Shown here piece after piece: positions 51,967-52,612 of a DNA stretch of 64,000 nt. The position numbers and the translations under genes were made by a program. Source of the DNA: Oxalobacteraceae bacterium (GTDB lineage Bacteria > Pseudomonadota > Gammaproteobacteria > Burkholderiales > Burkholderiaceae_D). Location of the stretch: contig RGFZ01000004.1 of assembly GCA_010024875.1 (NCBI GenBank), positions 18,618-82,617 of the forward strand. Reading direction: 5' to 3'. Numbering within the stretch: the first letter of the stretch is position 1; each line of letters starts with the position of its first letter. Below the pieces are notes generated by a model. That model saw only the letters and a list, made by a program, of their open reading frames with translations. It had not been told where the DNA came from and ran no database searches.

Positions 51967-52612
51967 TCAGGCTTGATCGACCTCGACGAATTCGTCTGCG
52001 CCGCCTTTGACTGACTCGACGATATCCTTCACGGAGTTCGCCCGGCCCTCGAGGATCGCGTCGGCGATGCCGCGCGCGTAAAGGGTGATCGCTTTGGATG
52101 AATCATCGTTACCGGGGATCACATAGGTCACACCGTTCGGGGAGTGATTGGTGTCGACCACGCCAATCACAGGAATGCCCAGCTTGGCAGCCTCGGTGAT
52201 GGCACCCTTGTGGTAGCCGACGTCGATCACGAAAATCGCGTCCGGCACGCCGTTCATGTCCTTGATGCCGCCTCAGGCGCTTGATCGAGGTCTTGATGGT
52301 CTTGAAGTTGGTCAGCGTGCCGCCCAGCCAGCGCTGTTCGACGAAAGGCACGCCTGCACGCTGCGCTTCGGCAGCAATGATGTCGCGCGCCTGACGCTTG
52401 GTACCCACCATGAGGATGGTGCCGCGATTGGCGGACAGCTGGCGAACGTACTTGGCGGCCTCCTGGAACATGACCATGGTCTTTTCCAGGTTGACGATAT
52501 GAATTTTGTTGCGATGACCGAAAATGTACTGGGCCATCTTGGGGTTCCAGAAGCGGGTCTGGTGACCGAAATGGACACCGGCTTCCAGCATTTCACGCAT
52601 AGTGACTGACAT
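51967..52612 (-). pseudogene. rpsB: 30S ribosomal protein S2 with frame-breaking internal deletion
   Basis: The N-terminal 113 codons (52612-52274) are a normal S2: MREMLEAGVHFGHQTRFWNP, GTLTNFKTIKTSIKRL. The family's next block, about 34 residues forming the coiled-coil helices between KRL and GGIKDM, is absent. The C-terminal part resumes in a different frame at 52272 (GGIKDMNGVPDAIFVIDVGY) and continues intact to 51967. In the first frame translation runs to 52109 as unrelated sequence. S2 is essential for the 30S subunit, so this cannot be the only copy in a living cell. An assembly or base-calling loss of roughly 100 bases is the leading explanation. Context (tsf, pyrH, frr) is normal. 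Confidence 0.88.

Follow-up and report, generated by a model that had tools for sequence, protein, structure and literature searches.

The rpsB locus and its junction

The window, by which we mean the whole stretch of 64,000 nucleotides that was analysed, lies on contig C167 (82,617 bases) of a draft genome, G000. On its minus strand it carries rpsB, the gene of ribosomal protein S2, which is an essential protein, between a tsf-like and a map-like open reading frame (ORF). The features considered here are the following:

52612 to 51967, minus strand: rpsB, with its start at 52612 and its stop at 51967
52273..52612, minus strand: 5' part of rpsB, coding for S2 residues 1-113 between the start codon and the junction (ORF 52109-52612; PF00318 profile 1-115; alignment with 18 relatives)
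52272..52273, minus strand: rpsB junction, where 101 bases are absent in comparison with 18/18 spanning same-genus relatives (alignment, BLAST and gene-by-gene comparison)
51967..52272, minus strand: 3' part of rpsB, the C-terminal region of S2 in another frame, as far as the rpsB stop (ORF 51967-52257; PF00318 profile 146-216)
52109..52272, minus strand: out-of-frame tail of the 167-aa ORF (ORF reading)
50964..51845, minus strand: tsf-like ORF, named by sight, open, downstream of rpsB (collinear with relatives)
52928..53764, plus strand: map-like ORF, named by sight, open, upstream of rpsB and divergent from it (collinear with relatives)

The S2 frame starts with the ATG at 52612 and reads to ...TSIKRL, after which out-of-frame codons follow until a stop at 52109 closes an ORF of 167 aa; the C-terminal part of the protein, from GGIKDM onward, is read in another frame that ends with the stop at 51967. 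Both ORFs are covered by the Pfam family Ribosomal_S2 (PF00318), at profile positions 1-115 and 146-216, or 1-115 and 137-216 in the genome-wide search. The locus is therefore like other uS2 genes (rpsB; PF00318) in that both of its parts match the family, and the gene order of its neighbourhood is that of relatives. It differs from them in lacking the hairpin positions of the profile and in changing frame: the domain is divided between two frames instead of lying in a single open one, and 34 residues of the coiled-coil hairpin are missing. The preliminary description had concluded that a functional S2 cannot be made from this locus, and as printed the sequence indeed offers no full S2 in one frame. 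With a +1 step at the junction it reads as an S2 of 214 residues without the hairpin. By eye, the sequence at the join also forms a short palindrome (CGCC TGA GGCG, minus strand 52269-52279), which we regard as chance.

The part of the protein concerned is a defined one. In the passages of PMC3296737 that deal with E. coli S2, a protruding coiled coil is placed at residues 110-150 and is described as touching helices 35-37 of the 16S rRNA, and these passages further report that it suffices for the binding of S1 to the ribosome. The residues lost from rpsB are in the coiled-coil hairpin of S2, the docking site of S1.

The 101-base block in relatives and in public proteins

Eighteen loci from same-genus genomes span the site (those of G013 and of a second contig of G006 do not, and G017 has no family match). 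In the multiple alignment the break falls at 52273|52272, and 101 bases stand there, ungapped, in all 18; pairwise BLAST puts the break exactly at this position in 14 of them and at most five bases off in the other four. Since 101 bases are 34 codons less one base, the loss also shifts the frame. The comparison thus bears out the preliminary description on two points, namely that rpsB is short by about 34 codons and that the loss, judging from the change of frame at the junction, is not a multiple of three.

A gene-by-gene comparison of the window with four relatives found rpsB split against every one of them. ORFs with an ortholog-like match to the window numbered 51 in G014, 39 in G019, 42 in G007 and 62 in G002 (antisense ORFs included), and those that were frame-split numbered 5, 4, 4 and 3, respectively. 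These 16 rows comprise rpsB four times, once per relative, three ORFs antisense to rpsB, seven antisense to other genes (as judged by eye) and two overlapping ORFs of G007, both at one site. The split of rpsB, being seen against all four relatives, is not due to chance. In the same comparison, one 376-aa ORF of G007 (G007:C69:10059-11189, L150) takes in parts of two neighbouring genes, lpxD-like and fabZ-like by sight, which stand apart from each other in the window (40642-41716), each with an open frame; this ORF represents either a fusion in G007 or an assembly error there.

The junction pattern occurs in one of the 21 genus genomes, the window's own. When S2 was searched for by family in 96 genomes (the window's own counted), 92 gave a match, with one whole-profile match in 88; S2 is partial or divided between contigs in three (G006, G013 and G064), and two pieces on one contig were found in G000 alone. 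S2 was matched in 19 genus genomes besides G000, at a single place in 18 of them and as two pieces at contig ends in G006. A wider, family-wide draw gave an S2 match in 377 of 392 genomes, at least two of which (G163 and G284) have two matches.

The possibility that rpsB is a hot spot for contig ends was rejected, as contig ends lie near it in five of these 19 genomes, no clear excess over the roughly three that were estimated by hand from contig counts. Nor is the block more variable than both of its flanks: its diversity among relatives (0.204) exceeds that of the 5' flank (0.140) but not that of the 3' flank (0.212), so that strain variation as a cause finds no clear support.

The S2 read with the +1 step (214 residues) was then used as a query against about 5.8 billion public proteins. 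Out of 8,000 scored matches, 7,988 had E <= 1e-60, and we examined the best 120. Every one of the best 120 of these 7,988 matches carries, with respect to the window S2, an insertion of 34 residues after residue 113. Outside the block, at least five distinct proteins among the best 120 (P0002-P0006, with contig counts of 2+1+11+14+1 = 29) agree with the window S2 at 214/214 residues, and all five possess the block. The closest genus genome, G019, agrees with the window S2 at 204/214 residues. As far as protein sequence goes, P0002-P0006 are closer to the window S2 than any genus genome compared, and they supply, at the protein level, a closely matching sequence that is free of the lesion. The out-of-frame tail (residues 108-167) was searched as well and gave four candidates with shared words, none of them at E <= 10; this silence says little, because even the ORF of the window itself was missing from the matches.

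Concerning public records, it should be noted that L055 (JAMPER010000001.1), titled Alistipes senegalensis, has an S2 that is 87% identical to this Burkholderiales S2 over 114 residues. L041, whose isolate name is similar to that of L055, is titled Oxalobacter formigenes, and the title of L055 looks wrong.

Search for a second rpsB, and a second lesion, in the draft genome

The genome searched contains 3,024,353 bases (3.02 Mb) in 243 contigs and is estimated to be 96.7% complete and 3.19% contaminated. Family search of these 243 contigs revealed no second rpsB, just the two pieces at the window locus, and the DNA of this locus, compared with its own genome, matches itself alone. The lost block was also searched for, using the block of the nearest relative with its flanks as a DNA query (E <= 10), and no copy was found in the genome: the best of 20 matches is 24 bases of flank in rpsB (E 0.009), and the other 19 have E values of 0.11 or weaker. 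The suggestion of the preliminary description that an intact rpsB may exist elsewhere is therefore unsupported within the assembly by the family, locus-DNA and block searches, with a small probability left for a copy absent from the bin.

Five loci outside the window were checked. The choice of rpsA was prompted by the docking of its product, S1, on the part of S2 that is lost; rpoB, rpoC and fusA served as controls. The draft genome possesses rpsA twice, intact on contig C22 (194-1747, L157) and in two frames on contig C171 (1-1650, L158), where the match covers profile positions 1-342 and then, after a change of frame, 375-516. According to BLAST, the break on C171 is at 1029-1032, where 108 bases of C22 face 2 bases of C171, so that the net loss is 106; the edges of this lesion are not fixed, as global alignment leaves a few bases dispersed over the gap. 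On the two sides of the break the copies are 87% and 82% identical, and since two rpsA copies so diverged are present we consider the bin to be mixed. The C22 copy of rpsA, rpoB, rpoC and fusA are all open, so that one of the five loci is broken, and a lesion of the type seen in rpsB, though different in size (101 bases there, a net 106 here), recurs in the same assembly. The C171 rpsA is a second probable assembly lesion.

Among the 18 other genus genomes searched for rpsA, the gene is whole in 15 and partial or in pieces on different contigs in G006, G013 and G015, the piece of G013 having one internal stop; two rpsA pieces on one contig were found in none of the 18. Damage to both S1 and S2 could also be given a biological reading, but the intact rpsA in the bin, the likeness of the damage and the divergence of the rpsA copies make assembly far likelier.

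Origin of the break

We hold it to be highly probable that the break in rpsB arose locally during assembly, as an error in a metagenome bin of mixed content. The 243 contigs, the estimated contamination and the two diverged rpsA loci show this bin to be both fragmented and mixed. Moreover, public S2 proteins that are the same elsewhere have the block, so that an assembly error is most likely, rather than life without an essential protein. The other option raised by the preliminary description, that the assembly dropped about 100 bases, is consequently the one we favour, on account of the intact public S2 identical at every residue outside the block and of the rpsA lesion of similar size and kind in the same draft. 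The consensus probably dropped the 101 bases, and rpsB would then be whole in living cells. Either a misjoin or the wrong closure of a gap, at a place where several closely related strains or species contributed competing reads, could have removed the block, and such an event between contig ends agrees with what is seen. A plain repeat collapse is unlikely, since the words of 11-15 bases flanking the join occur once each in the window and the window contains no N.

Errors of this kind have been described. Passages of a paper on metagenome-assembled genomes (Genome Res. 2020, PMC7111523) report local assembly errors in them, voice the suspicion that such errors are commonest in IDBA-UD assemblies, and point out that uncurated genomes of this type propagate incomplete or incorrect protein-coding genes into databases. 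The present case resembles the errors treated in those passages in its short loss within a conserved gene, its fragmented bin and its incorrect protein-coding gene. As a consensus error, the rpsB break most likely holds nothing new biologically and most likely has no biological import. Its significance is one of data quality, as in a genome estimated to be 96.7% complete both rpsB and the second rpsA are broken, with about 100 bases missing and the frame shifted in each. Where the loss of an essential gene is claimed from such drafts, the reads should be consulted first.

There is a slim chance that the deletion at the rpsB locus is real and that S2 is supplied by an intact rpsB that was left unassembled or unbinned. 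The estimated completeness of the bin allows for an absent contig, and near-identical intact S2 proteins do exist in public data, but a second rpsB was not found in the 243 contigs, 18 of the 19 other genus genomes have one S2 match place (the exception being the two pieces of G006 at contig ends), and the broken gene itself occupies the same place in the gene order as in relatives.

It is very improbable that the deletion is real and affects the sole copy, a shift of +1 at the junction sequence CTG AGG C allowing S2 to be made without its hairpin. This motif, which is read in frame at the junction, resembles the +1 shift site of yeast Ty1, and we regard its occurrence as chance. The shift would yield the S2 of 214 residues, both halves of which match Pfam, and the lost residues (114-147 in the numbering of the intact protein) are inside the coiled-coil protrusion given for E. 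coli S2 in the passages of PMC3296737 discussed above. However, those passages also report the coiled coil to be sufficient for S1 binding to the ribosome, public S2 proteins that are identical elsewhere bear the block, and the site is not conserved in relatives, the junction occurring in G000 alone among the 21 genus genomes. The RNA structure at the junction is nothing beyond that of shuffles (z 0.50), and the like lesion in rpsA points to assembly. That the only S2 of this bacterium has lost the S1-docking coiled coil and is produced through a +1 shift on CTG AGG C, so that the docking of S1 via S2 is lost, seems to us scarcely credible, and the data do not call for it.

An assembly error within one lineage also accords with the sequence on the two sides of the join. 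We compared one-kb bins around the junction with the four relatives, the last three bins with sequence of G014 and G019 only, and G019 is the closest in 12 of 14 bins and ties with G007 in another (56273). The bin starting at the junction (52273) is out of line, with G007 at 85, G002 at 83 and G014 at 82 against 80% for G019, the three higher scores being over shorter aligned lengths. As G019 is nearest on both sides, the join is most likely inside one lineage, and a chimera of distant species at rpsB was rejected on the basis of these bins, the one at the junction notwithstanding. That the contig joins two different organisms within rpsB is very improbable. In its favour are the mixed bin, whose rpsA loci share 87% and 82% identity in the two parts, and the one-kb bin at the junction, which has a different closest relative from the bins beside it. 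Against it, the two sides otherwise share their closest relative, the gene order is kept, and the two halves together are identical, at 214/214 residues, to single public proteins.
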